Of a stretch of DNA of 64,000 nucleotides, positions 5,316 through 19,137 are shown piece after piece; positions within the stretch are counted from its first letter, which is position 1; each line of letters starts with the position of its first letter. Source of the stretch: Planctomycetota bacterium (GTDB taxonomy: Bacteria; Planctomycetota; Phycisphaerae; Phycisphaerales; UBA1924); contig JAFIFX010000002.1 of the NCBI GenBank assembly GCA_020831805.1, forward strand, positions 248,001 to 312,000, written 5' to 3'. The position numbers were made by a program, and so were the translations under genes. The notes under the pieces are model-generated. The model worked only from the letters and a program-made list of their open reading frames with translations, had not been told where the DNA came from and searched no databases.

Positions 5316-7004
5316 TCATCGCTCGCCGTATTCCTTGAAGTAGCGGTTGCGGGACTCCCAGTCCCCGATAACCACCATCTCGCAGTTCTTTTCGAGGACG
5401 GTTTGCGCGCCGGGGTTGGCGCGGAGGCCGTCCTCGTTGCGGTAGCCGATGACGGTGCACCCGCTGCGCTCGCGGATGCCCGAGTCGGCCAGGCACTTGC
5501 CGACGAGCTCCTCGGGCACGGGGACGCGGAAGACATCCAGCCCCTGGGCGACCGTGACCACGCGGCTTTTCTGCAGCAGGTTGAAGATGCTGGTCGCGCC
5601 GATCGAGGCGTAGGACTGGACGAAATCCGCGCCGGCCTTGTGCATCGCCGGGACATGCTTGTCGACGGTGCATCGCGTGATGATCTCGATGTCGGGCCGC
5701 AGCCGCCGGCAATGGAGCGTCAGATACAGATTGGTGTCGTCGTTGTGGGTGGTGATGACGACGGTGGGGGCCTTGCCGAGCCCGGCCTTCTCGAGGATTT
5801 CGGGCTCGGCGGCGTTGCCGACGATCGTCTTCTCGGGCATGGTCACCCGCCGCTGGTTCTGCTCGATGATGCGGAAGTCGATGCCGCGCTGCTTGAGGGC
5901 CGCGGCGGTCGCCTGGCCGATGCGTCCGCTGCCGATGATCACAGCCGGCTCGCCGGAGACGCCGTAGATGGCGAAGTGCTCGTCGTAGTTCTGGAGCTGC
6001 TCGGCCGAGCCGGACATCATCAGCACGGTGTTGGGGCCGATCATCGTGTCCGGCGTGGCGTGGCTGAACTCGCCGCGGTCCCAGACGCCGACGACATTGA
6101 CATCGAGGTCGCTCAGGCGGTTCTCGCGCAGGGTCTTGCCGACCAGCGGGGTTCGTGCGGCGTTGGCCTCCGCGATCAAGAGGTTGTCGAAGCGGGCGAC
6201 GATATGGGTCACGGCGTCGCCGCCGGAGATGCACCGGGCGAGGGCGTGGCCCATGATGTCCGGGAATCGCAGCACCGCGGTCGCCCCGGCCATCTCGAGG
6301 ATCTGGGCGGACACGGTGTCGTCGACGGTGACGACGACGGGCGTGCCCTCGGAGACGCCGCGCGCGGTGAAGGCGACGGTGGTGTTCTGGGCGTCGGTCA
6401 GGGTCGTGGCGACCATGGCGGCCCTGGCCAGGCGGGCGGACTTGTAGGTCTCGGGGTCGTCCAGATCACCGACCATCACGCGGATGTTCTGATCGTGGAG
6501 CTTCTGCGCTTCCACAAGATCCGGGACGAGCACCGCGTAGGAGTACCCGAACTGATCGAGCTTGGCGATCAGCGCCTGGGTCACAGGGTCGTACCGGGTC
6601 AGAAGCACATGGTCTTTTTCGTCCTCGGGCAGGGCGCGGGTGGTCCGCGCGGCGGCCTGGGCCTCGATCCACGGGGCGTAGAAGAACTGGATAAAGGTGA
6701 ACGGCAGCAGGGCCAGGAGGAAGACCGTGCCCGAGATGAGCACGACGACCGAGTACATCCGGCCGAGATCGCTCTCGAAGACGATGTCGCCGAACCCGAG
6801 GGTGGACATCGTGACCAGCACCCAGTAGAGGCCGGAGATCAGGGAGTGACTCTGGCCCTCCCAGTGCATGATTACTTGGAACAGGGCGGTGAACAGGACG
6901 ATCATGCCAGCCAGGACCAGCAGGAACTTGCCGAGCACGCGGAGGTTGCGCCGGGTCCGTCGCTGGCGAATCATGGCGATGAGTTGGGCAATGAAGGTTT
7001 GCAT
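5316..7004 (-). CDS. TrkA-type potassium channel protein (Ion_trans_2 + RCK/TrkA_N + TrkA_C)
   Basis: LVTMSTLGFGDIVFESDLGRMYS filter region, VIIGSGRIGQATAAALKQRGIDFRIIEQN nucleotide-binding motif. Confidence 0.88.
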   Translation of the reverse strand: MQTFIAQLIAMIRQRRTRRNLRVLGKFLLVLAGMIVLFTALFQVIMHWEGQSHSLISGLYWVLVTMSTLGFGDIVFESDLGRMYSVVVLISGTVFLLALLPFTFIQFFYAPWIEAQAAARTTRALPEDEKDHVLLTRYDPVTQALIAKLDQFGYSYAVLVPDLVEAQKLHDQNIRVMVGDLDDPETYKSARLARAAMVATTLTDAQNTTVAFTARGVSEGTPVVVTVDDTVSAQILEMAGATAVLRFPDIMGHALARCISGGDAVTHIVARFDNLLIAEANAARTPLVGKTLRENRLSDLDVNVVGVWDRGEFSHATPDTMIGPNTVLMMSGSAEQLQNYDEHFAIYGVSGEPAVIIGSGRIGQATAAALKQRGIDFRIIEQNQRRVTMPEKTIVGNAAEPEILEKAGLGKAPTVVITTHNDDTNLYLTLHCRRLRPDIEIITRCTVDKHVPAMHKAGADFVQSYASIGATSIFNLLQKSRVVTVAQGLDVFRVPVPEELVGKCLADSGIRERSGCTVIGYRNEDGLRANPGAQTVLEKNCEMVVIGDWESRNRYFKEYGER

Positions 7005-7062: not shown

Positions 7063-8064
7063 TCAATCCACGGCCCCCAGCCTGACTGGAAAGGCCGATT
7101 CCCGGAAGGATCGCAGCCCGAACGCGGCCGCCCCGCCGCCCCAGCGCAGGCCCAGCGTGCCCGCCAGGGGGCGGTAGGTGGCGGTGTAGAGGGTTCCGGA
7201 GCCGCGGTCGTAGTCGGTCCGGTAGAGCGGGGGGCGCAGGAACTGCTCTTCGACGGTTTCCGCGGTGATCCCTGGGGTTTGGAGCAGGCTCTCGATCCGC
7301 TCGAGCCGTTCCACGGTGGCGCACTGGCGGGCGTAGGAGGGCCACTCGATGCGTCCCTGGTGGTTGGTGGATGCGGCGCGGGCCTCGAAGCGTGCCGGCC
7401 GGCCGGGGCCGGTGTACGCCGCGACGAAGTCGCCCCCCGCGTCGAGGCCCACGAAGGTGTACGGCATCGAGACCGGCATCCGGGCCAGCACCGCCCGCAT
7501 GTCGGCGACCGAGCGGCAGACCTCCAGCAGATAACGGAGGACGAGCTGGGACCCGAAGCCCTCGCCGGTGTCGCGGCGGCCCCCGAACGCCAGGGCCACG
7601 GCCAGGCCGTGCGCGTTGATCCCGTCGAGGGCGCCCCAGACGCAGTCGGTCACCGCGACCACCGGCGTGCCGCAGAGGCTGCTGCGGAGCACCACCCCGT
7701 CGCAGAGGTGGGGGGCGTGGTCGTAGTTGCGGACCAGGGCGGGGCCCTTCGCGTCGAAGAGCACGGCCTGCGAGCAGCCGCGCACCATGCGCGGCGGGCG
7801 GTAAAGCGTGAGAAAACGGACCAGCGCGGCCTGATCATCGAGCCCGGCCCCCAGTTCGAGCAGGCGATGAAAGGCCGGCATCAGCTCGGGCATGTGCAGC
7901 GCCAGCATGCCGATGCAGTGGCCCGGCTCGATCGGTTCGGCGCGGGCGATCCAGCGGTGGTACGCGGGCCAGTGCCGGGTGAGCTGCTCGCCGAGCTTTG
8001 CGCCGGGCCAGGCCTCGTCGAGCGATCGGAACGGGAGGGTGGTCACGCGGTCGGGTCCGGCCAT
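7063..8064 (-). CDS. C45-type peptidase / acyl-CoA:6-APA acyltransferase-like (carcinine hydrolase-like) protein
   Basis: MAGPDRVTTLPFRSLDEAWPG...; GCSQAVLFDAKGPALVRNYDHAPHLCDGVV resembles the AAT/C45 N-terminal-nucleophile region; NHQGRIEWP. Confidence 0.7.
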   Translation of the reverse strand: MAGPDRVTTLPFRSLDEAWPGAKLGEQLTRHWPAYHRWIARAEPIEPGHCIGMLALHMPELMPAFHRLLELGAGLDDQAALVRFLTLYRPPRMVRGCSQAVLFDAKGPALVRNYDHAPHLCDGVVLRSSLCGTPVVAVTDCVWGALDGINAHGLAVALAFGGRRDTGEGFGSQLVLRYLLEVCRSVADMRAVLARMPVSMPYTFVGLDAGGDFVAAYTGPGRPARFEARAASTNHQGRIEWPSYARQCATVERLERIESLLQTPGITAETVEEQFLRPPLYRTDYDRGSGTLYTATYRPLAGTLGLRWGGGAAAFGLRSFRESAFPVRLGAVD

Positions 8065-8066
8065 GG

Positions 8067-9608
8067 TCACAGCAGCTTGAACCCACCCGGTTCGGCGGCC
8101 GGGAGTTCGGACTCGGCGCTCAGCGGCGTGCCCTCGTAGTGGGCTCGGATGGCTTTGATCCATGCCATGGAGCGGTCGGTCAGACGGAAGTCGTCGTCCA
8201 TGAACCGGCCGGGGCTGAAGAGGATGCCCAGGTCGGCCCCCTCGTAGCGGTAATCGCCGACGCCGGAGATCCGCAGGAAGAAGGCGCGGTTCTCCCGCTG
8301 GACGGTGCGCCGGTGGGTCTGCATGCGGACATAGCGGGCCTGGCCGTCGTCGCCCATCTCCCAGATGCCCGACGCGGGCGCGCGGCAGATCCGATCGACG
8401 GACTTGTCGGTGTGCTTGATGACCAGCTGCGACCAGCTGTCGATGTTGTCGGGGTTGGCCCAGCGGTCGTTGAGGCCGGCGACATCGAGCTCGAAGTCGA
8501 TGTCCATCCATTCGAGCAGGTGGAACAGGACGAGGGGCGCGTCCGCGTGGGCGAAGCAGGCCAGGTTGGTCATGGAGCTGGCGCCGGTAATACGGGGGTT
8601 GCACTCGCCGAGGTACACCGCGCCGGAGTCCAGGTCGGTCAGGAAGTCGAGCTCGAAATAGCCGCGGTAGCCGAGCTTGCGCAGCTCCTCGCCGAAGGCG
8701 AAGGCCGCGGCCCGGGCGTTGGCGCGGACGCCGGCGTCGAACGCGCCGGCGAAGACCTCGTTGCCGCACCAGCCGCCGCGGTACGGCGTCAGCTCGGGGA
8801 AGCCGACCAGCTCGGTCATCAGCGGGCCGACGATGGTGCCCCGGCGGGTCACGCAGGCCTCCAGGGCCGAGCCGCGGCAGCGGATGCGTTTCATCACCTT
8901 GACCTCGGGCGCCTCGGCGATCTCCTCAGCGTGCTTCTCGAAGTCCTTCTCGTCGGAGATGAAGAAGGTGGTGTGGCCGGAGTCGCCGTAGGCGGTCTGG
9001 ACGACCAGATCGGGGCCGAGGCGCTTGGCGGCCGTGCGCAGCGCCTTGTACGAGTCGACCTTCGCGAGCACATTGGGCACGCTCGGCACGCCGGCGCGGT
9101 CCGCGATGCGCGTCGTCTCGACCTTGTCGTCGATGCGGCTGCGAAGGGCGGCGGGGGGGAAGCAGACTTCAAGCCCGATCTTCTTGCAGAGTTCCTCCGT
9201 CTTCTCGTCGAACATGAGGAACATCGCCTTGCCGCCGGGGCCGCGCTGCTGGATGAAGCGGATGACATCCTCGTGGCTGAGCAGGTAGTTGTTGATGTCC
9301 TCGATGGAGGTGAACGGCTCGTGGGGCTTCTCCGGCGGGACGAAGACATTGGGGTGCTGCCCGTCGAAGCAATCGATGGCGTTGATGAAGGTGAAGTTGC
9401 GGACCCACTCGTCCATGCCGAGCAGGTTGATCGGCGTGGCGCTGATGAAGTAGACCGGCTCGGTGTTCCGGAAGAAATGGCGTCGGATCGCGGAGATCCC
9501 GTCCAGCGTCGGCCCGGCGTCGGTCCGCGTCGGGTGAAGCGGCCGCATCGCGTTGTATTCGGCCTTGCGTCCGGGGCGAGGCGCCTTTGTGTTCCGCGTC
9601 GGGCTCAT
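8067..9608 (-). CDS. ATP-grasp ligase (biotin-carboxylase-like annotation)
   Basis: DLVVQTAYGDSGHTTFFISDEKDFEKH, YFELDFLTDLDSGAVYLGECNPRITGASSMTN ATP-grasp motifs. Confidence 0.75.
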   Translation of the reverse strand: MSPTRNTKAPRPGRKAEYNAMRPLHPTRTDAGPTLDGISAIRRHFFRNTEPVYFISATPINLLGMDEWVRNFTFINAIDCFDGQHPNVFVPPEKPHEPFTSIEDINNYLLSHEDVIRFIQQRGPGGKAMFLMFDEKTEELCKKIGLEVCFPPAALRSRIDDKVETTRIADRAGVPSVPNVLAKVDSYKALRTAAKRLGPDLVVQTAYGDSGHTTFFISDEKDFEKHAEEIAEAPEVKVMKRIRCRGSALEACVTRRGTIVGPLMTELVGFPELTPYRGGWCGNEVFAGAFDAGVRANARAAAFAFGEELRKLGYRGYFELDFLTDLDSGAVYLGECNPRITGASSMTNLACFAHADAPLVLFHLLEWMDIDFELDVAGLNDRWANPDNIDSWSQLVIKHTDKSVDRICRAPASGIWEMGDDGQARYVRMQTHRRTVQRENRAFFLRISGVGDYRYEGADLGILFSPGRFMDDDFRLTDRSMAWIKAIRAHYEGTPLSAESELPAAEPGGFKLL

Positions 9609-12382
9609 GGTTTACCTGCTTTCGTCTGGTTTTCGGTGCGGGCCTCGGGAACGGCGTGGGTCGACAGCCCGGCGGCGGCGCGTTTGAGCGCGGCTTTGCT
9701 GAAGACGCGCAGCCCGTCCTTGGGGTTGTAGCCGTGGATTTCCTTCACATCCAGCGCCAGGAGGTAGGCGATGATCTCCGCGCTGATCACCTGGCCCGGC
9801 ACCAGCACGGGGAAGCCCGGCGGGTAGGGCGTGATGAACGCGGCCGAGACGAACTCCCGCCCCTCGCGGATGGCGGCGAGGGTGCGCTCGGAGAGGGGCG
9901 CACTCTCGAGGTTGTCTTGCTCGTACGCCATGAAGAAGGCGCGGCGGAGATCACCCTCGGGTGTGCCGGTGTCGTCGGGCCGGAAGGCGGCGTGGAAGCG
10001 GCTGAAGTTGGGCAGGGGCGGGCCTTCGAGCAGCGATTCGACCCGGGCGCACCGGCGTGCGCGGTCGGCCGCGCTCTCGGTGGCGATCTGATCGGAGAGA
10101 TCGCGCGAGATCGACGCGAGGACCTCGATCAGGTAGGCCACATCGCCCCGCGTCGTGCCGATGTTGGGCATGAAAAGGGCCGAGTTGCGCGAGGTCTTGT
10201 TGATCTGGATGTCGTACTTCTCGATCAGCATGTTGCGCAGCGTGTCGCCGTCCATGCCGGTCGAGGCGACCGAGAGCGTGACGCGGGTGGGATCGAGCGT
10301 GAACTCGTCCATGCGCCAGGCTCGCTCCATGTTGCCCCAGCCCTGCTCGGGGTCGTAATAGAAGTCCAGGCCGGACGGGCGGAACTCGGCCGGGATCATG
10401 TGCTGCGGACGCAGCACGGAGAAGAAGCGGGAGATATCCGGGTGGTTGTTGACGCAGGCCCGCAGCGTCATGGCCAGATCGATGGTCTGCTCAACGAGCT
10501 GGTAGCCCTCGAGCTCGACCTGACGCCGGCCCACATCGAGCGAGGCGATGATCTGGTAGTTGGGCGAGGTCGATGTGTGCGTCATGAACGCTTCGTGGAA
10601 CGCCGGGGAGACCTTCTGCTCGAAGTCCTCGTCGTAAACATGGATCATCGATCCCTGACGGAGCGAGGTGAGCGTCTTGTGCGTGCTCTGCGTGGAATAG
10701 ACGCGGATGCGCACCTCGTCGGGGTCGGCCATCGGGCCGGTCTGCCCGCCGCCGGCTTGCGCATCGCGGAACTTCTCGCGGTATTCCGGGCTGCGGTACA
10801 TGTCGCGCAGCCTTTCCGCGGCGTCCATGCCCGTGCGTTGACGCAGCGTGGGCGTGAAGCGTGCGAAGGCGAACCATGCCTCGTCCCAGAGGAACACCAT
10901 GTCCGGCTTGATGGCCAGGACCCGGCGCATGACCATCTCGGGGTCGTAGGTAATCCCGTCGAAGGTGCAGTTGGTCAGGATGAGCATCCGGACGCGGTCG
11001 AGCTTGCCGGCCGCCTTGAGCGCCAGGAGCTGGCGCTCGATCTCCGCGATGGGCACCCCGCCGTACATCGAGTATTCCTGCAGCGGGTAGGAATCGAGGT
11101 AGACCGGCATCGCCCCGGCGAGCATGATGGCGTAGTGGTGGGACTTGTGGCAGTCACGGTCGACCAGCACGATATCGCTGGGCTGGATAAGGGCCTGGAG
11201 CACAATCTTGTTGGCGGTGGAGGTGCCGTTGGTGGCAAAGAAGGTCTGGCGGGCGCCGAAGGCGCGGGCCGCGGCTTCCTGGGCTTTCTTGATCGGGCCG
11301 CGGGGCTGGAGGAGTGAGTCCAGCCCGCCGTTGGTGGCGGAGGTTTCCGCCAGGAAGATGTTGGGCCCGTAAAAGTCGTGGAGATCACGGGCCCAGTGCC
11401 CGCTGGTCATGGACTTGCCGCGGGCGATGGGCAGGGCGTGGAACACGCCGGTTGGCTTGGCGCTGTAGGCGCGCACCGCGTCGAAGAACGGGGCCTCATA
11501 TCGCGCCCGCACGCCCTTGAGGATGCTCAGGTGCAGTTCCATGAACTGCTCAAGCCGGTAGAAGCTGCGACGGAAATCCTTGCCGATCCGCCCGGCGGCG
11601 CTGGCCAGGGGTGTGTCGGTGACCAGGTACAGATCCAACTCCGGCCGCAGGTGTTTGAGCAGGCGGCCGAGGGCGATGCTGCGCTCCAGACCAAAGGTGG
11701 TCGGCAGGCTGTCACTGCTGATCACCTTGAGGTAGCGGCGCAGCGCCGGGTGGGTGTTCTGCGTGTGGAAGGCGTAGTTGTACCGGAGCACGACGGCCTG
11801 GATCGTTGGGTTGAATAGGACCGCGATGACGCAGTCCTCCAGGCTGGGCACCGCGAGCACGTCGTAGATCGTCTCGTCCGAACCACGCCTGCAGGCGGCG
11901 AGGCTGGTGCGCAGATCGTCGTGCTCGTACGCATCGACCCCGTCGACGAAGAGCACCTCGAAGTACGGCTTGGCGCGGTGGCCGGGGCGATCCGGTCCGG
12001 GGCGCTCGCTGCGCGGCTGGCCGCGATCTTCGGTGTGGATCGCCCCGCCGCGCTCGCGGTAGGCGTCGCCGATCAGCAGTCGGGCGATCTCGGCGATCTC
12101 GGACGCCAGATCCGCGTACTCGCCGCGCTCGAAGAGACGGGCCAGCCGGTCCATGCGGGCCTGGCCTGGATACGCCCAGTAGGGCTCGAGCGAGGCGAGC
12201 GTGTCGAGGCTCTTGGCGACCTTCTCCTTCGGTTCGGCGGTGTCTCTCCCGGCGAGTGCGAACTCCTTGAGCCAGGTGGTGCGCAGGAGCAGATCATTCC
12301 AGGTGTCCATGCGCAGCAGCGGTGCGCTGTACTTCCGCACGGCGCGTGCGGTCTCATCGGCATGGTCGTATGACCGATTCAA
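9605..12382 (-). CDS. Orn/Lys/Arg decarboxylase, fold-type I PLP enzyme with long N-terminal region
   Basis: ARQTFFATNGTSTANKIVLQALIQPSDIVLVDRDCHKSHHYA; FLWDEAWFAFARF; STHKTLTSLRQGSMIHV (PLP Lys). Confidence 0.88.
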   Translation of the reverse strand: MNRSYDHADETARAVRKYSAPLLRMDTWNDLLLRTTWLKEFALAGRDTAEPKEKVAKSLDTLASLEPYWAYPGQARMDRLARLFERGEYADLASEIAEIARLLIGDAYRERGGAIHTEDRGQPRSERPGPDRPGHRAKPYFEVLFVDGVDAYEHDDLRTSLAACRRGSDETIYDVLAVPSLEDCVIAVLFNPTIQAVVLRYNYAFHTQNTHPALRRYLKVISSDSLPTTFGLERSIALGRLLKHLRPELDLYLVTDTPLASAAGRIGKDFRRSFYRLEQFMELHLSILKGVRARYEAPFFDAVRAYSAKPTGVFHALPIARGKSMTSGHWARDLHDFYGPNIFLAETSATNGGLDSLLQPRGPIKKAQEAAARAFGARQTFFATNGTSTANKIVLQALIQPSDIVLVDRDCHKSHHYAIMLAGAMPVYLDSYPLQEYSMYGGVPIAEIERQLLALKAAGKLDRVRMLILTNCTFDGITYDPEMVMRRVLAIKPDMVFLWDEAWFAFARFTPTLRQRTGMDAAERLRDMYRSPEYREKFRDAQAGGGQTGPMADPDEVRIRVYSTQSTHKTLTSLRQGSMIHVYDEDFEQKVSPAFHEAFMTHTSTSPNYQIIASLDVGRRQVELEGYQLVEQTIDLAMTLRACVNNHPDISRFFSVLRPQHMIPAEFRPSGLDFYYDPEQGWGNMERAWRMDEFTLDPTRVTLSVASTGMDGDTLRNMLIEKYDIQINKTSRNSALFMPNIGTTRGDVAYLIEVLASISRDLSDQIATESAADRARRCARVESLLEGPPLPNFSRFHAAFRPDDTGTPEGDLRRAFFMAYEQDNLESAPLSERTLAAIREGREFVSAAFITPYPPGFPVLVPGQVISAEIIAYLLALDVKEIHGYNPKDGLRVFSKAALKRAAAGLSTHAVPEARTENQTKAGKP

Positions 12383-13368
12383 ACACCACCCCCGCCCGGC
12401 GCCATGGGCGGCTCAGCGGACTTGATGAGCGGTACGGGCAGGCTGAGTTCCTCGGGCGCGATCGTGTCCGGCGGCGGCGCGGGGATGCCGTTCTTCGGGC
12501 CGATTCCGGCCTTGGAGCCGCGGGCCATCTTCTCCAATGCACCGAGCGTATCGAGGTACGGGTCGGACCACGCCGCGCGGTTGTAGACGGAAAAGTCCAC
12601 CCTGCGATCGCGGAAGCTTTTCAGGGGTTGGCCCAGGCCCTTGAGCCCGACCTCGCGGGATCGCTGGACGCGCTCGATATCGATCTCGATGGGCAGAAGT
12701 TCCTCGTTGCTGCCCGCCTGGTAGAGCACATCGCCGTTGGGGGCCACCAGCAGCGACCGGCCGTTGCCCCCGTCGCCGATGCCGTTGATGTCGATCACGA
12801 AGCACTGGTTCATGGCCGCGCTGGCCCGCACGATCGAGAGCTCCACATCCCGATCGATCGAGGGGGTCAGGGTGGGGTGGATGATCACCTCCACGCCCAT
12901 CGCGGCCAGCGTCCGCGTCGTCTCGGGGAACCACATGTCGTAGCAGATGCTCAGACCGAACCGCCCGATGTCCGGCACATCGAACACGCAGAACTCCGTC
13001 CCGCTCTCCACGCCGACCTCGTAGGGCATGAAGGGGAACATCTTGCGGTAGCGCGTGACCACACGCCCGGAGGGATCGATCACCGGCGCGGTGTTATAGA
13101 TCCCGGAAGCGGTCTGCTCGTACAGCGAGCCGGGGATCAGCCAGATGCCGTGCTTGGCCGCGACGCGCTGGTAGGCCTCTTCGACCTCACTGGGCAGTGG
13201 CATCGCGTTCCCGGTCCACCCGCCGAAGGTCGCCAGCTCGCTCATGACCACCATCTGCACCCACGGGTACAGCGTCATGAGCATCTCGATGCGGTTGAGG
13301 ATGTGCGGCATGTTCGGGGAACTTCCCGAAACATGAAGCTGAAGACCGGCGATGGCGAACGGACGCAT
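12379..13368 (-). CDS. Carbon-nitrogen hydrolase (nitrilase superfamily)
   Basis: Catalytic E-K-C context: SELATF, YRKMFPF, SICYDMWFPETTR. Confidence 0.85.
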   Translation of the reverse strand: MRPFAIAGLQLHVSGSSPNMPHILNRIEMLMTLYPWVQMVVMSELATFGGWTGNAMPLPSEVEEAYQRVAAKHGIWLIPGSLYEQTASGIYNTAPVIDPSGRVVTRYRKMFPFMPYEVGVESGTEFCVFDVPDIGRFGLSICYDMWFPETTRTLAAMGVEVIIHPTLTPSIDRDVELSIVRASAAMNQCFVIDINGIGDGGNGRSLLVAPNGDVLYQAGSNEELLPIEIDIERVQRSREVGLKGLGQPLKSFRDRRVDFSVYNRAAWSDPYLDTLGALEKMARGSKAGIGPKNGIPAPPPDTIAPEELSLPVPLIKSAEPPMAPGGGGV

Positions 13369-13371
13369 GAA

Positions 13372-14706
13372 TCAGGCCTCCTGACCAACGGACACACGGG
13401 CGGAGCCCGTGGCCGAAACAACCGCATTTTCCAGGATGTCCAGCCCGCGTGCAAGCTGCTCGTCTGTGATCACGAGCGGCGAAAGGATGCGGATGACATT
13501 GCTCGCCTGGCCGGCGGAAATAATCAGCAGGCCGTTCTCTCGGCATGCGGTGATCACCCGCTTGACGGTTTCCGAGGCGGGCCTGGATGGGTCTCCGCGC
13601 TCGTGCAGTTCCATTGCCATCATAGCACCGAGGCCGCGGACGCTGGTGACATCGGGCACCCTGGCGGCGATCGCCTCGAACCGCTCGCGGATGACCTGGC
13701 CGATCCGCTGGGCCCGCGCGTTGAGGTCGAGTTCCTCCATGCGCCGGATGGTGGCTAGGGCCGCGGCGCAGGACACCGGATTGCCGCCGTAGGTCCCGCC
13801 GACCGTGCCCGGGATGACCCGGTCCATCACGCTGGCCTTGCCGATCACGCAGGAGATGGGCATGCCCCCGCCCATGGACTTGGCCCACGGCGAGAGATCG
13901 GGCAGGACGCCGAGGTGTTCGTACGCCGCCCAGCGGCCGGTGCGGGCGAAGCCGGTCTGCACCTCGTCGAAGATCAGCATGATGCCGTGTTCGTCGCAGA
14001 TGGCGCGCAGGCCCCTGGCGTAGGCCTTGGGCAGCACATGGAACCCGCCCTCGCCCTGCACCGGCTCGATGATGATCGCGGCGACGCTGGCGGGGGAGAT
14101 CGTATTGATGAAGGCCTCGCGCAGGCGCACCAGCTCACGCCGGACCAGATCGTCCTCGCTGATCCGTTCCCCGGGCTGGGCGCTGGGGTAGGGCAAGCGG
14201 TAGATTTCCGGCACGAACGGGCCGCAGCCGGTCTTGTAGGTCACCTTGGATGTCAGCGTGGAGCAGAGCAGCGTGCGCCCGTGGAACGCGCCGGTGAAGC
14301 AGATCACCGCCGGACGCCCCGTGGCCTGACGGGCGATCTTGATCGCGTTCTCCACCGCCTCGGCCCCGGTGTTGACGAGCATGGCCTTGGTCTGCCCGGG
14401 GCGGTCGTCGTGGGGGAACAGACGCACCAACTCCTCGCAGAGCGCGACATAGCCCTCGTAGGTGGCGACATGGATGCAGGCGTGCTGCAGCCTGCCCGCC
14501 TGCTCGCGGATCGCCGCGACCACGGCCTCGTCCGAGTGGCCCACATTCATCACGCCGATGCCGCCGGCGAAGTCGATGAACGCACGCCCGTCCACATCCG
14601 TGATGATCGCGCCCTCGGCGCTGGCCGCGGTCATCGTCGACAGCCGCCCGACCCCGGGGCACACCACCGCCTCGCGCCGCCGGATCAGTTCCTCGCCCTT
14701 GCTCAT
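13372..14706 (-). CDS. gabT: 4-aminobutyrate aminotransferase family (class III PLP)
   Basis: GAEAVENAIKIARQATGRPAVICFTGAFHGRTLLCSTLTSK, LIFDEVQTGFARTG, AKSMGGGMPISCVIG. Confidence 0.88.
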   Translation of the reverse strand: MSKGEELIRRREAVVCPGVGRLSTMTAASAEGAIITDVDGRAFIDFAGGIGVMNVGHSDEAVVAAIREQAGRLQHACIHVATYEGYVALCEELVRLFPHDDRPGQTKAMLVNTGAEAVENAIKIARQATGRPAVICFTGAFHGRTLLCSTLTSKVTYKTGCGPFVPEIYRLPYPSAQPGERISEDDLVRRELVRLREAFINTISPASVAAIIIEPVQGEGGFHVLPKAYARGLRAICDEHGIMLIFDEVQTGFARTGRWAAYEHLGVLPDLSPWAKSMGGGMPISCVIGKASVMDRVIPGTVGGTYGGNPVSCAAALATIRRMEELDLNARAQRIGQVIRERFEAIAARVPDVTSVRGLGAMMAMELHERGDPSRPASETVKRVITACRENGLLIISAGQASNVIRILSPLVITDEQLARGLDILENAVVSATGSARVSVGQEA

Positions 14707-14733
14707 CGGTTCCTTCCTTCGCAACGGACCCGC

Positions 14734-16167
14734 TCAGAGTCCCCAGGAGACATACTTGATCTCGGTGTACTCGTCCATGACATACCGACCGCCCTCGCGC
14801 CCGAAGCCGGAGTGCTTGACGCCCCCGAACGGCGCCTGGGCCGTCGACGGCCCGCCGTCGTTCGCGCCGACGATGCCGTACTCGAGGGCCTCGGCCACGC
14901 GCATCAGCCGCGAAGCGTCCCGGGTGAAGAAGTACGCGGCCAGCCCGTACTCCGAATCGTTCGCCAGGCGGACGCCCTCGTCCTCGTCCTTGAACCGCGT
15001 GACCGCGGCCACCGGGCCGAAGGTCTCCTCGCGGAAGATCTTCATCTCCGGCGTCATCCCGGTGATCAGCGTCGGGGCGTAGAACCGGTCGGCCAGGCCG
15101 TCGATCCGCACCCGCTCGCCGCCGGCGCGCACCGTGCCGCCCTTGCCGATCGCGTCGCGCACATGGGACTCGACCTTCTCCACCGCCGCGTCGTTGATGA
15201 GCGGGCCGATCGAAACGCCATCGCCCGTGCCCTCGCCGACTTTCAGGTCATTGATCGCCTCGGCGAACCGCTCCACGAACGCGTCATGGATGCCCTCCTG
15301 CACGATGAACCGATTCGCGCAGATGCAGGTCTGGCCCGCGTTGCGGAACTTGCAGGCCGTCGCCGCGGCCACGGCCTTGTCCAGGTCCGCGTCGTCGAAG
15401 ACCAGGAACGGCGCGTGCCCGCCCAGCTCCAGTGAAAGCCGCAGCAGATGCTCGGACGCGCCCTTCATCAGGACCCGCCCGACCTCGGTCGAGCCCGTGA
15501 ACGAGAGCTTGCGCACGCGGTCGTCGTCCAGCCACGCCCCGCCGATCGCCTTGGCTTCGCCCGTGATCACATTGACCACGCCCGCCGGGATGCCGACCTC
15601 CTCGGCCAGTTCCGCGATCGCCAGCGCGCTCAGCGGCGTGTCCTCCGCCGGCTTGATGACCACCGGACAACCGCACGCCAGCGCCGGGCCGAGCTTGCGC
15701 GTGATCATCGCCGCCGGGAAGTTCCAGGGCGTGATGATCGCGGCCACTCCGACCGACTGGCGGAGCACCAGGATCCGCTTGCCCGCGGCGGAGGCCGGGA
15801 TGATCTCCCCGTACAGCCGCTTGCCCTCTTCCGAGGCCCATTCGAGGAACGACGCGGCGTAGGCGATCTCGCCCTTGGACTCGCCCAGCGGCTTGCCCTG
15901 CTCGGCCGTCATCAACCCCGCCAGGCGATCCTGGTCGCGCATCATCGCCCGGCCCAGTTCGCCGACCAGCTTGCCCCGGTCCGCGGCCGTCCTCGAACGC
16001 CAAGCGGGCCACGCCGCGAAGGCCGCATCGACGGCCCGCCGGGCTTCGGCCCCCCCCATGCGGGGGACGCTGGTCAGCACCCGGCCCGTGGCCGGGTTGG
16101 TCACCTCGAAGGTCTTGCCGCTGTCCGCACCGACCCATTCGCCGTTGATCAGGCATTCCGTTCGCAT
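14734..16167 (-). CDS. gabD: NAD(P)-dependent succinate-semialdehyde dehydrogenase family
   Basis: LSFTGSTEVGRVLM, SLELGGHAPFLVFDDADLD, FRNAGQTCICANRF. Confidence 0.9.
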   Translation of the reverse strand: MRTECLINGEWVGADSGKTFEVTNPATGRVLTSVPRMGGAEARRAVDAAFAAWPAWRSRTAADRGKLVGELGRAMMRDQDRLAGLMTAEQGKPLGESKGEIAYAASFLEWASEEGKRLYGEIIPASAAGKRILVLRQSVGVAAIITPWNFPAAMITRKLGPALACGCPVVIKPAEDTPLSALAIAELAEEVGIPAGVVNVITGEAKAIGGAWLDDDRVRKLSFTGSTEVGRVLMKGASEHLLRLSLELGGHAPFLVFDDADLDKAVAAATACKFRNAGQTCICANRFIVQEGIHDAFVERFAEAINDLKVGEGTGDGVSIGPLINDAAVEKVESHVRDAIGKGGTVRAGGERVRIDGLADRFYAPTLITGMTPEMKIFREETFGPVAAVTRFKDEDEGVRLANDSEYGLAAYFFTRDASRLMRVAEALEYGIVGANDGGPSTAQAPFGGVKHSGFGREGGRYVMDEYTEIKYVSWGL

Positions 16168-16282: not shown

Positions 16283-17077
16283 TCACGCGATCAGGGCCGA
16301 AATCTCCTTGATGAGGATGAAGACCGCCATCACGACCAGGAACAGCGCAAAGCCTCGCCGAAGGGATTCCTGTTTGACCCGGGTGTTCAGCGCCTTTCCG
16401 ACCAGGCTGCCCACGAAGCCGATCAGGACGAACAGGCCGATGATCGTCCAGTCCACGCCGTCCCCGGCCGCGCTCAGCACGCCGAGGTACTTCCAGAAAC
16501 CCGCCGCGGACTTGAGGGCGATGATCACCAGGCTGGTGGCCACCGCGCGGCGCATGGGCAGCCCGCCAAGCAGCACGAGCGCGGGCACGATCAGGAACCC
16601 GCCACCCACGCCCACGAACCCGGTCAGCACGCCGACCACGACCCCGTCGCCGACGATCCGGGCCCACGGGCGGGCCGGGATCTTCTCGGCGTCCGGTGAT
16701 CCCGCATCCCCGGTGTTCCCCGCGGGCTTGGGAGGCTTCCACATCCGCTGCGCCGCCAGCAGCATGACGCACGCGAAGACCAGCAACTGCACATACCCCG
16801 GCACAAATCCGGCTATCCACGCGCCCCCGTAGGTCCCGATCATCGCCGGCACGCCGAAGAGCCCGACGGAACGCCAGTCGATCAGCTTGGCCCGTGCATA
16901 CGGCAACGCGCCCAGAAACGCGATCCCGCCCACGATCGCCAGGGACTCGGCGATGGCGACCTTGTCCGGGTGGCCGAGCAGGTAGACCAGCACCGGCACG
17001 GTCAGGATCGACCCCCCCGAGCCGAACAGTCCCAGGGACAGACCGATCGCCAGCGCGCCGAGCAGGGCGAAGATCAT
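16283..17077 (-). CDS. Sulfite exporter TauE/SafE family protein
   Basis: GLSLGLFGSGGSILTVPVLVYLLG and GFVGVGGGFLIVPALVLLGGLPMRRAVATSL. Confidence 0.9.
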   Translation of the reverse strand: MIFALLGALAIGLSLGLFGSGGSILTVPVLVYLLGHPDKVAIAESLAIVGGIAFLGALPYARAKLIDWRSVGLFGVPAMIGTYGGAWIAGFVPGYVQLLVFACVMLLAAQRMWKPPKPAGNTGDAGSPDAEKIPARPWARIVGDGVVVGVLTGFVGVGGGFLIVPALVLLGGLPMRRAVATSLVIIALKSAAGFWKYLGVLSAAGDGVDWTIIGLFVLIGFVGSLVGKALNTRVKQESLRRGFALFLVVMAVFILIKEISALIA

Positions 17078-17110
17078 CGGCCTTCAACTCCGACTCGGAC
17101 GGCGCACCGC

Positions 17111-17692
17111 TCAGGATGCACAGGATGCCCCGCCGGATCCCGACACCCGGTTCCACGGCATCCTGCCCAGCAGCATGGCCATCCCGCACCAGCCCGTCGC
17201 GCCAGCGAACATCAGCCCGCAGCCGACAAAGGCCGAGATCGCCAAAAACCAAAGGTTCTGGGAGATCAGAGCGAGCACCACGCCCAGCACGATCAGGAAT
17301 CCGGCGGTGAGCTGCACCTGACGCATCACGGGCAGCCTCGGCGCGCCCGCTGGTTTGACGGTGGGCCGCCCGGACGCCTTCCAGGCCTCGATGCCGCCCG
17401 CCAGGTGGAAGACCCGTTCGCCCTGATTGGCGTACCGGCCAGCCGCGTCCGCCGAGCGGCGGCCCGAGCGGCACTGGAACACGAGCCGTGCGCCCGGGTG
17501 CCTGGCCCGCAGCACGGACGCGTCAAACTTCGACAGCGGCATCAGCTCCGCCCCGTCGATGCGCTCCTCGGCGTGCTCGAAGTCCTCGCGTACATCCACA
17601 ATGACCGTGTTGCCCTCCCGCACCCAGCCTTCGAGCATCTCGGGGGACAGTTCGGTCAGCTCGGTCTTGTCGCTCTGTGTCGCGGTGCTCAT
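17111..17692 (-). CDS. Rhodanese domain + YgaP-like TM (DUF2892) protein
   Basis: VFQCRSGRRSADAAGRYANQG rhodanese loop; C-terminal TMs. Confidence 0.88.
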   Translation of the reverse strand: MSTATQSDKTELTELSPEMLEGWVREGNTVIVDVREDFEHAEERIDGAELMPLSKFDASVLRARHPGARLVFQCRSGRRSADAAGRYANQGERVFHLAGGIEAWKASGRPTVKPAGAPRLPVMRQVQLTAGFLIVLGVVLALISQNLWFLAISAFVGCGLMFAGATGWCGMAMLLGRMPWNRVSGSGGASCAS

Positions 17693-19137
17693 GCGTTCAC
17701 CTGTTCGCCTTTCTTCCCGGCCGCCTGCTCCCAGGCCAGGTAACCACCCCTCAGATTGATCACGTCGAAACCGTTGCGCTGCAGGAACGACGAGGCCCGC
17801 GCCGAGCGCACGCCGCTGCGGCAGTGCACCAGCAGCGGCCCGCCGCCCGGGACTTCGTCCAGCCGCGACGCCAGGCGCGTGTGCGCGATATTGGTCGCGC
17901 CGTCGATGTGCCCCTCGTCGTACTCGGTCTTCCGGCGCACATCCAGCACGCGGACAGCGCCATCCCCGACCAGGCCGACCGCCTCCTTCGCGGGGACCTC
18001 GCGGACCGTGTCCAGCCGGTGCGTCCCGTCCGCGTAGGAGCCGATCTCCGACGCGTCGAACCAGCCGCGGATGTCGTCGAGCCCGACGCGGATCAGGTCC
18101 CGCACCGTCTCGTCCAGCCGTTCCGGCTCAACGATCAGCACGATCGGCTCGTCCACGCCGATCAGCGAGCCCGCGTCGGTGTTGAACGACTTGATCAGCG
18201 GAAGCGAGAGCGAGCCGGGGATGTGCCCGTCGCGGTACGCCGCCCACTCGCGGGTGTCCGCCACCGCCACCGTCTTTGTATCGATCCCGCGCAGCTCGTC
18301 CACGGACAGCTTCTTCGGTTCCGGGACGCCGCCCAGCACGGGCGGGCCTTCTTTGTTGATCTTCTTCATGTACGCAAAGTACAACGGCGGTTCCGGCTGC
18401 CCGCTGAGGATGAAATCGACGAAGCCCTGCTCGTCCGTGGCGGCCCGGATCGCCGGGTTGAACCGCTTCTCATAGCCCACCGTGCTCATCGGCACCGCGC
18501 CGAGCGCCTTGCCGCAGGCGCTGCCCGCGCCGTGGCCCGGCCAGACCTGCACGAAGTCGGGCAGGTCGTCGAGCTTGTGCACGGTCTGGTACAGCCGCCT
18601 GGCGGACGGCTCCATCGCCCCCGCGTGCCCGGCGGCCGATTCGAGCAGGTCCGGACGGCCCAGATCGCCGACGAACACGAAGTCCCCGGTCGCAACGCCG
18701 ATCGGCGCGTCCGCGCCCGCGCCGTGGTCGGTCACGAGATACACGAGATGCTCGGGCGTGTGCCCCGGCGTGTGGACGGCCTTGATCTCGATCTGACCGA
18801 TGTGGAACGAGTCCCCGTCCTTGAGCAGCCGGTGGTCGTACGAACCGCCGCCGGGCTTCTTGTCGAGCCACCGGTACTTCCAGTCCGCGTCGCCCTCGTC
18901 AGAGACATAGACCTTCGCCCCGACGCGCTCGGCCAGCTCGCGCGAGCCGGACACGAAGTCCGCGTGGATGTGCGTCTCCGCCGTCGCCACGATCCGCAGC
19001 CCGTTGTCCTCGGCCAGCCCGATGTAGCGATCAATATCCCGCTCGGGGTCGATCACCACCGCCTCGCCGGTCCGTTGGCAGCCGATCAGGTAGGCGGCCT
19101 GGGCGAGCTTCTCGTCGTAGATCATGCGCATGAACAT
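17689..19137 (-). CDS. MBL-fold / double-rhodanese protein (persulfide dioxygenase-sulfurtransferase, CstB-like)
   Basis: ATAETHIHADFVSG and HTPGHTPEHLVYL metal motifs; C-terminal VHCRSGVRSARAS rhodanese loop. Confidence 0.88.
   Translation of the reverse strand: MFMRMIYDEKLAQAAYLIGCQRTGEAVVIDPERDIDRYIGLAEDNGLRIVATAETHIHADFVSGSRELAERVGAKVYVSDEGDADWKYRWLDKKPGGGSYDHRLLKDGDSFHIGQIEIKAVHTPGHTPEHLVYLVTDHGAGADAPIGVATGDFVFVGDLGRPDLLESAAGHAGAMEPSARRLYQTVHKLDDLPDFVQVWPGHGAGSACGKALGAVPMSTVGYEKRFNPAIRAATDEQGFVDFILSGQPEPPLYFAYMKKINKEGPPVLGGVPEPKKLSVDELRGIDTKTVAVADTREWAAYRDGHIPGSLSLPLIKSFNTDAGSLIGVDEPIVLIVEPERLDETVRDLIRVGLDDIRGWFDASEIGSYADGTHRLDTVREVPAKEAVGLVGDGAVRVLDVRRKTEYDEGHIDGATNIAHTRLASRLDEVPGGGPLLVHCRSGVRSARASSFLQRNGFDVINLRGGYLAWEQAAGKKGEQVNA

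Follow-up and report, generated by a model that had tools for sequence, protein, structure and literature searches.

A widespread ATP-grasp/C45/nitrilase gene module with a probable GABA-to-succinate end

Several described pathways share parts with a cluster of six genes at positions 7063 to 16167 of a 64,000-nucleotide stretch of DNA (hereafter the window) from a bacterium of the Planctomycetota (contig JAFIFX010000002.1, positions 248,001 to 312,000). The cluster encodes a decarboxylase (ODC), an ATP-grasp enzyme (GRASP), a C45-family protein (C45), a nitrilase-fold amidase (NIT), an aminotransferase (GABT) and an aldehyde dehydrogenase (ALDH). Lysine catabolism by DavA, DavT and DavD uses a trio made of a nitrilase-fold amidase, an enzyme like 4-aminobutyrate (GABA) aminotransferase and an enzyme like succinate-semialdehyde dehydrogenase (SSADH), to which the module adds a decarboxylase, an ATP-grasp enzyme and C45, and unlike which it favours a C4 end. 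The Puu pathway of Escherichia coli resembles the module in ATP-dependent amide formation, hydrolysis and a drain through GABA aminotransferase and SSADH, as well as in a PuuR-like regulator, which adjoins some copies of the module. It differs in that the ligase of the module is an ATP-grasp enzyme and not glutamine-synthetase-like, that the hydrolases are C45 and NIT, and that amide formation need not come after decarboxylation. No PuuA-like ligase, PuuB oxidase, PuuC or PuuD is found among the six genes with Pfam and NCBIfam. An earlier note on this DNA had compared the operon with Puu, and its picture of a ligase/hydrolase pair draining to the GABA end without PuuB and PuuC is partly right, whereas the polyamine part is not supported. 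Arginine transamination with the 2-ketoarginine (AruI) route, as in the rhizobial CATCH-N network, also ends in GABA and succinate, and in Thiothrix, Shinella and other bacteria its enzymes (an AruI-type decarboxylase, a ureohydrolase and an aldehyde dehydrogenase) stand where ODC would be; the network as described is without the ATP-grasp/C45/nitrilase step, and the words "carboxylase" and "amidase" are absent from the text (PMC7268258). Finally, Rv2531c of Mycobacterium tuberculosis is a probable amino acid decarboxylase of unknown activity (PMC12910592). Its structures (PDB 9n0n, 9n0o and 9n0p) share with ODC full-length homology (E = 1e-238 for 9n0n), the Asn of an NKT motif and a PGQ near the C terminus, but not R732, which is Ile in 9n0n. 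Literature searches on the gene combination, on guanidinobutyrate in an ATP-grasp context, on the pSymA genes of Sinorhizobium meliloti and on the cyanophycin-dipeptide pathway found no description of the gene set, so that the module is apparently undescribed as far as these searches reach, as the earlier note had supposed; in kind it would be GABA-shunt catabolism to which an amide step not described before is added.

The genome that carries the window (3.36 Mb, 93% complete, 30 contigs) has metagenome-assembled genomes (MAGs) of the Phycisphaerales as its closest named relatives. The six genes are, in order of transcription:

14734-16167, minus strand: ALDH, gene 1 of the operon, an aldehyde dehydrogenase of the SSADH type (GabD-like)
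13372-14724, minus strand: GABT, a class-III GABA aminotransferase
12379-13368, minus strand: NIT, an amidase of the nitrilase superfamily
9605-12382, minus strand: ODC, a decarboxylase of the OKR fold that uses pyridoxal phosphate (PLP), of the Rv2531c kind, 925 amino acids
8067-9608, minus strand: GRASP, an ATP-grasp enzyme of NCBIfam NF005096
7063-8064, minus strand: C45, a predicted autoproteolytic acyltransferase/hydrolase of the N-terminal nucleophile (Ntn) type, 333 amino acids

All six genes lie on one strand with spacings from -4 to +9 bp, as the earlier note had read them: 9 bp separate ALDH and GABT, 3 bp GABT and NIT, and 2 bp GRASP and C45, and overlaps of 4 bp join NIT to ODC and ODC to GRASP. 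The domains named in that note are borne out by Pfam and NCBIfam. Two boundaries need care: GABT probably starts at the ATG at 14706 rather than at 14724, behind the stretch GGAAGGAA, and the mechanical open reading frame 7063-8769 (568 amino acids) is not the C45 gene, which corresponds to its C-terminal 333 amino acids.

Confirmed relatives of GRASP were found on 475 stretches in GTDB representatives, and neighbour counts were drawn from the best 80 of these, taking in only contigs with sufficient flank. Among the best 80, C45 lies downstream of GRASP in 66/70 cases and ODC upstream in 64/69, NIT stands beside GRASP in 56/64, GABT in 42/60, and an ALDH is nearby in 35/56. These loci belong to Planctomycetota, Gemmatimonadota, Myxococcota, Pseudomonadota, Acidobacteria and one Eisenbacteria MAG; GRASP additionally occurs on a Bacteroidota plasmid, and the module is spread over at least six phyla as well as plasmids. 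GRASP was detected in 16 of 300 planctomycete genomes, in 5 of 243 from the class of Thiofilum and in 8 of 296 from that of Marivibrio. Among planctomycete loci, 11 of 15 hold all six genes together, some with an ALDH of another subfamily or on the opposite strand, and the other four are incomplete, in part at contig ends. The neighbourhood is conserved in relatives, a check that the earlier note had put forward. When pairwise distances are compared, GRASP correlates with ODC at r = 0.84, with NIT at 0.81 and with GABT at 0.78, and more weakly with C45 (0.56).

In a non-random pick of 25 genomes, 17 with GRASP and 8 without (raw counts that ignore kinship), C45, NIT at 52% identity or more and a GABA aminotransferase at 47% identity or more are each present in 17/17 genomes with GRASP and 0/8 without, and ODC in 15/17 and 0/8. 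In two genomes (G302 and G303), GRASP, ODC, C45 and the GABT-NIT pair sit on separate contigs and yet every gene is retained. Complete sets that persist even when scattered point to a functional bond and not to mere linkage. Gene content and order recur far above chance expectation, and we are highly confident that the six genes form one functional module.

The end of the pathway is well supported. ALDH matches Pfam Aldedh (553 bits) and NCBIfam PRK11241 (640 bits), and GABT matches Pfam Aminotran_3 (404.7 bits). The residues that we take, by comparison with E. coli GabT, to be the carboxylate-binding arginine, the dual-specificity glutamate and the PLP lysine are kept in its relatives (R150 in 28/29, E220 in 29/29 and K282 in 29/29), and no further aminotransferase of this kind is found in the window genome at E ≤ 1e-30. 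Across phyla, the two positions are filled by different proteins. The ALDH slot holds a GabD-type enzyme in the relatives of the window, a Sad/PRK09406-type enzyme in a Gemmatimonadetes locus (L056) and a Bacteroidota locus (L115), and a divergent GabD-type enzyme adjoining a PuuR-like regulator in L060. The GABT slot holds several GABA aminotransferase subfamilies, two of them above curated cut-offs (600 bits in L097 and 555 bits in L087, for a TIGR00700 cut-off of 506.65). The same two activities have been recruited repeatedly and independently, which argues that GABA-to-succinate conversion is the selected function, and we regard this as our best evidence. The pathway probably ends in the conversion of GABA to succinate, and the drain through GabT and GabD proposed in the earlier note, from GABA or a homologue, is backed by this pattern.

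ODC matches Pfam OKR_DC_1 (268.6 bits), carries its catalytic PLP lysine in an STHK motif and keeps the catalytic lysine and PLP residues intact (K569 and D500 in 47/47 operon ODCs each). A residue expected to meet the substrate side chain differs. The Glu of the VEKT motif, present in every Lys/Arg decarboxylase compared (ADC and the two LDC chains) and in two OKR proteins of the Thiothrix type, is replaced by Asn728 in 47/47 operon ODCs, with R732 in 46/47. Counting positions in the alignment equates Asn728 with Glu526 of LdcI, a residue postulated from docking to bind lysine (PMC5607190). Operon ODCs therefore lack the acidic residue by which OKR decarboxylases are expected to hold a cationic side chain, and non-polyamine functions are known among homologues of the fold (PMC8503589). 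The exchange of Glu for Asn728 leads us to infer that ODC does not act on free cationic amino acids. Its substrate may bear a carboxylate or an amide and is probably glutamate or a glutamine-like amide, from which GABA or a GABA amide would arise directly. Possibly an OKR-fold enzyme here does the work of glutamate decarboxylase without being homologous to it, and this change may have begun in the Rv2531c family. A role of the window in polyamine biosynthesis was ruled out, as SpeA and SpeB sit elsewhere in the genome; the earlier proposal that an Arg/Orn/Lys decarboxylase first makes an amine is countered both by these genes and by Asn728. The biosynthetic SpeA adjoins agmatinase (L160 4839-8812, contig C1 of the window genome, G000), and a distant gene resembling homospermidine or deoxyhypusine synthase lies beside the pair.

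ODC is missing from the locus in Thiofilum, Thiothrix, Shinella, Sinorhizobium RAC02 and Roseateles XES5, and no ODC-like gene occurs anywhere in the Thiofilum and Thiothrix genomes. At these loci, GRASP and C45 are accompanied by a permease, a ureohydrolase, a 5-guanidino-2-oxopentanoate decarboxylase of the AruI type, an ALDH, a D-amino-acid dehydrogenase (DadA), an arginine racemase and RidA. In Thiofilum the racemase is fused to an arginase-like domain; such fusions with an ornithine/alanine-racemase-like PLP domain are seen at L080 19266-21134 and L085 15561-17420. The ureohydrolase of the cassette scores as an agmatinase type and not as an arginase. Chemistry of this kind leads from arginine through 4-guanidinobutyrate to GABA and yields an aldehyde and an acid but no amine. 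In the GRASP tree the cassette versions fall on two separate backgrounds, a single origin is rejected by the AU test (p-AU 1.4e-48), and both ODC-less lineages retain GRASP, C45 and NIT. ODC and the arginine cassette are alternatives. Since they are interchangeable, the substrate of GRASP should be common to both versions, either the amino acid from which they start or the GABA end, and hence not a diamine or agmatine, which only ODC would make. The ureohydrolase of the cassette argues that GRASP acts at the GABA end; Asn728 of ODC fits either end. Ureohydrolase and agmatine deiminase were each rejected as obligate partners, because module carriers exist without a ureohydrolase (G236) or without an agmatine deiminase (G002, G035, G097, G174 and G285).

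This exchange is why we prefer a GABA-centred reading over the order of steps in the earlier note. There, ODC would make agmatine, putrescine or cadaverine, GRASP would acylate the amine, C45 or NIT would deacylate it, and GABT and ALDH would carry the product to succinate. ODC does belong to the OKR family, PuuR-like regulators stand beside some copies, and GABT and SSADH could take amine or aldehyde intermediates, several S. meliloti enzymes being promiscuous (PMC7268258). We nevertheless consider this scheme unlikely, because it meets Asn728 in place of Glu, an operon with neither amine oxidase nor diamine aminotransferase, and a genome already provided with SpeA and SpeB. The ligation of a decarboxylated amine in particular is not supported, as two separately derived lineages without ODC still carry GRASP, C45 and NIT and make no free amine.

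The interchange could also be explained if GRASP acylated the side-chain amine of ornithine, giving a neutral look-alike of arginine, so that ODC or the AruI cassette would act on an N5-acyl amino acid without pyrroline cyclisation and C45 or NIT would then free GABA. Such protection would account for the exchange of ODC with AruI and for Asn728 and R732 in place of Glu, and C45 and its fold relatives do hydrolyse N-acyl compounds. It is, however, improbable in our judgment: the ODC version lacks an amine-to-aldehyde step, and the ureohydrolase of the AruI version, being of the agmatinase type, is a better fit to free guanidino compounds.

The core shared by the two versions consists of NIT, GRASP and C45. 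GRASP exceeds the cut-off of NF005096 (PRK06524; 734.5 bits against 684), a family named "biotin carboxylase". Its AlphaFold model (pLDDT 85) has biotin carboxylase, PurK and carbamoyl phosphate synthetase (CPS) as the top Foldseek ranks, a broad group that did not suffice to name the reaction. The operon has no gene for a biotin carrier or a carboxyltransferase; C45, ODC and NIT are the partners that recur, and the family name looks like a fold-based guess. The likeness to carnosine synthase suggested in the earlier note is not clearly borne out by this fold ranking or by Pfam, which finds mainly CPSase_L_D2 (27/33), followed by ATPgrasp_ST (9/33) and ATP-grasp_3 (8/33). The constant pairing with an amidohydrolase suggests that GRASP ligates an amide. 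C45 matches Pfam AAT (82.4 bits) and NCBIfam C45_proenzyme (125.2 bits, cut-off 85). Its sequence has no convincing match in the PDB; its model (pLDDT 95) has isopenicillin N acyltransferase (2x1c) as top structural match. Cys97 is invariant in 32 sequences, and C45 is a predicted autoproteolytic Ntn hydrolase in which this residue would become N-terminal. NIT matches Pfam CN_hydrolase (121 bits) with an intact E44-K109-C142 triad, conserved in at least 97% of 31 homologues. It is not the N-carbamoylputrescine amidase AguB (73.4 bits against a TIGR03381 cut-off of 410), and the AguB-like gene of G236 is a different one, located next to the agmatine deiminase of that genome. NIT keeps adjoining GABT where the operon has dispersed, and a second C45 of G236, off the main cluster, overlaps a GABA aminotransferase gene by 4 bp (L159 6985-9548, G236:C18); both hydrolases are thus placed where the release of GABA would be expected.

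Based on these results, we tentatively propose as a working hypothesis that the module is dedicated to catabolism and has GABA at its centre. Its front end varies and would provide either GABA or an amide of it: the window has ODC for this, probably decarboxylating glutamate or a glutamine-like amide, and the lineages of Thiothrix and Shinella have the racemase, D-amino-acid dehydrogenase, 2-ketoarginine decarboxylase, aldehyde dehydrogenase and ureohydrolase. The invariant core would make and break amides of GABA or of its glutamyl precursor, with GRASP joining a carboxylate to an amine at the expense of ATP, and C45 and NIT hydrolysing the amide and freeing GABA. GABT would then convert GABA to succinate semialdehyde, and SSADH would oxidize this to succinate. 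In this scheme we infer the catabolic direction, the substrate of ODC, the partner in the amide and how C45 and NIT share the work. That the module amounts to an unknown GABA route, in which an OKR-fold decarboxylase of acidic or amide amino acids is coupled to an ATP-grasp/C45/nitrilase cycle on an unrecorded GABA amide, is a possibility that we regard as rather doubtful. The operon, its conservation, the GABA end and the ligase/hydrolase logic of the earlier interpretation are thereby kept; its amine-first order and its ligation of an amine are not supported, and its carnosine-synthase comparison is not clearly so.

Several observations weigh against this hypothesis. A ligase and a hydrolase acting on one bond form a futile cycle unless they are regulated or separated in time. 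GRASP might be a carboxylase rather than a ligase, as its fold neighbours biotin carboxylase, PurK and CPS use bicarbonate. R813 of ODC, considered as a second charge reversal, was dropped because two alignments disagree. The window enzymes fall slightly below the curated cut-offs, ALDH with 634.6 bits for the SSADH family TIGR01780 (cut-off 646.35) and GABT with 476.8 bits for TIGR00700 (cut-off 506.65). The amide may also come from outside the cell, as suggested by Opp-type importers (see below). Lastly, the GABT and SSADH families include enzymes for 5-aminovalerate and glutarate semialdehyde, which makes a C5 substrate possible. A lysine-type amino acid would then be degraded through 5-aminovalerate to glutarate, with NIT, GABT and ALDH used in the manner of DavA, DavT and DavD; the GabT and GabD families overlap DavT and DavD, and the NIT-GABT-ALDH trio is similar. 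The replacement of ODC by arginine-to-GABA cassettes and the recruitment of SSADH-type ALDHs from several subfamilies make this C5 version very improbable.

Transporters flank the module in various copies: TAXI-TRAP, Opp-type ABC, DctA/GltP-like, APC and CAT-type. TAXI-TRAP and the DctA/GltP-like symporter accompany ODC versions, and a CAT-type amino-acid permease accompanies the arginine cassette. In Rhizobium, Roseobacter and Cupriavidus the module has Opp-type importers as neighbours, and the binding protein found there in Rhizobium is nearest to GsiB of glutathione import. Flanking transporters favour the catabolism of imported compounds, and they bear on two further explanations. In the first, GRASP or import would give a gamma-glutamyl amide, which ODC would decarboxylate to a GABA amide for hydrolysis by NIT, and in AruI versions the amide would pass through an N-succinyl compound to succinate. 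The GsiB-like protein agrees with this, as do a gene order that is such a pathway in reverse and the association of NIT with GABT even in scattered genomes, as for an omega-aminoamide amidase. The amine would leave unchanged, however, and the ureohydrolase and the arginase-like domain of AruI versions would have no role; we assign this explanation a low probability. In the second, GRASP would make a GABA dipeptide-like solute, store or signal, which C45, NIT, GABT and SSADH would recycle. The ligase and the hydrolase are indeed nearly always adjacent, but there is no exporter, catabolic GABT and SSADH are co-transcribed with them and importers stand beside several copies, and we find it quite unlikely that the GABA amide is the product.

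The catabolic, GABA-centred hypothesis brings enzymes without known function, one of them related to an enzyme of the tuberculosis bacterium, into one testable pathway. The module occurs in hundreds of species under database names ("biotin carboxylase", "C45 family peptidase" and "ornithine decarboxylase") that fit poorly, and it places the Rv2531c decarboxylase family, for which a structure but no substrate is known, in a context that yields a prediction. As the two front ends are interchangeable, the question of the substrate is directly testable in cultured Thiothrix eikelboomii, Marivibrio halodurans and Shinella.

Of the plasmids with a GRASP-like sequence, 24/33 are typed as conjugative. 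ODC, GRASP and C45 occur on symbiotic plasmids of Rhizobium leguminosarum Vaf10 (L114), of S. meliloti RU11 (pSymA, L121) and of Sinorhizobium medicae, with an Opp transporter, an amidase, a MurR/RpiR regulator and a serine hydrolase as neighbours. In the Vaf10 plasmid (L114 9234-23380) the three genes adjoin nifHDKEN and NIT is a fragment only; symbiosis is a setting in which the metabolism of arginine and of GABA is important. Several S. medicae plasmids hold no more than fragments of GRASP.

Genes on either side of the operon in the window were excluded as members. Upstream, 16283-19137 encodes an MBL-fold/rhodanese protein (like a bifunctional sulfur transferase/dioxygenase), a small rhodanese-like protein and a TauE/SafE-like permease. 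Downstream, 58 bp 3' of C45 and outside the conserved set, the gene at 5316-7004 (minus strand, 562 amino acids) possibly encodes an ion channel. Two other loci carry, downstream of the operon and on the opposite strand, a second, divergent aminotransferase-nitrilase-ALDH set (L034 12939-20263 and L045 13830-20460), which may belong to reductive pyrimidine (beta-alanine) degradation. In Alpha- and Gammaproteobacteria the module is repeatedly accompanied by a protein of about 140 amino acids that matches no Pfam or NCBIfam family at the thresholds applied (L074 12628-13065, with relatives in L087, L097, L099, L101 and L105).

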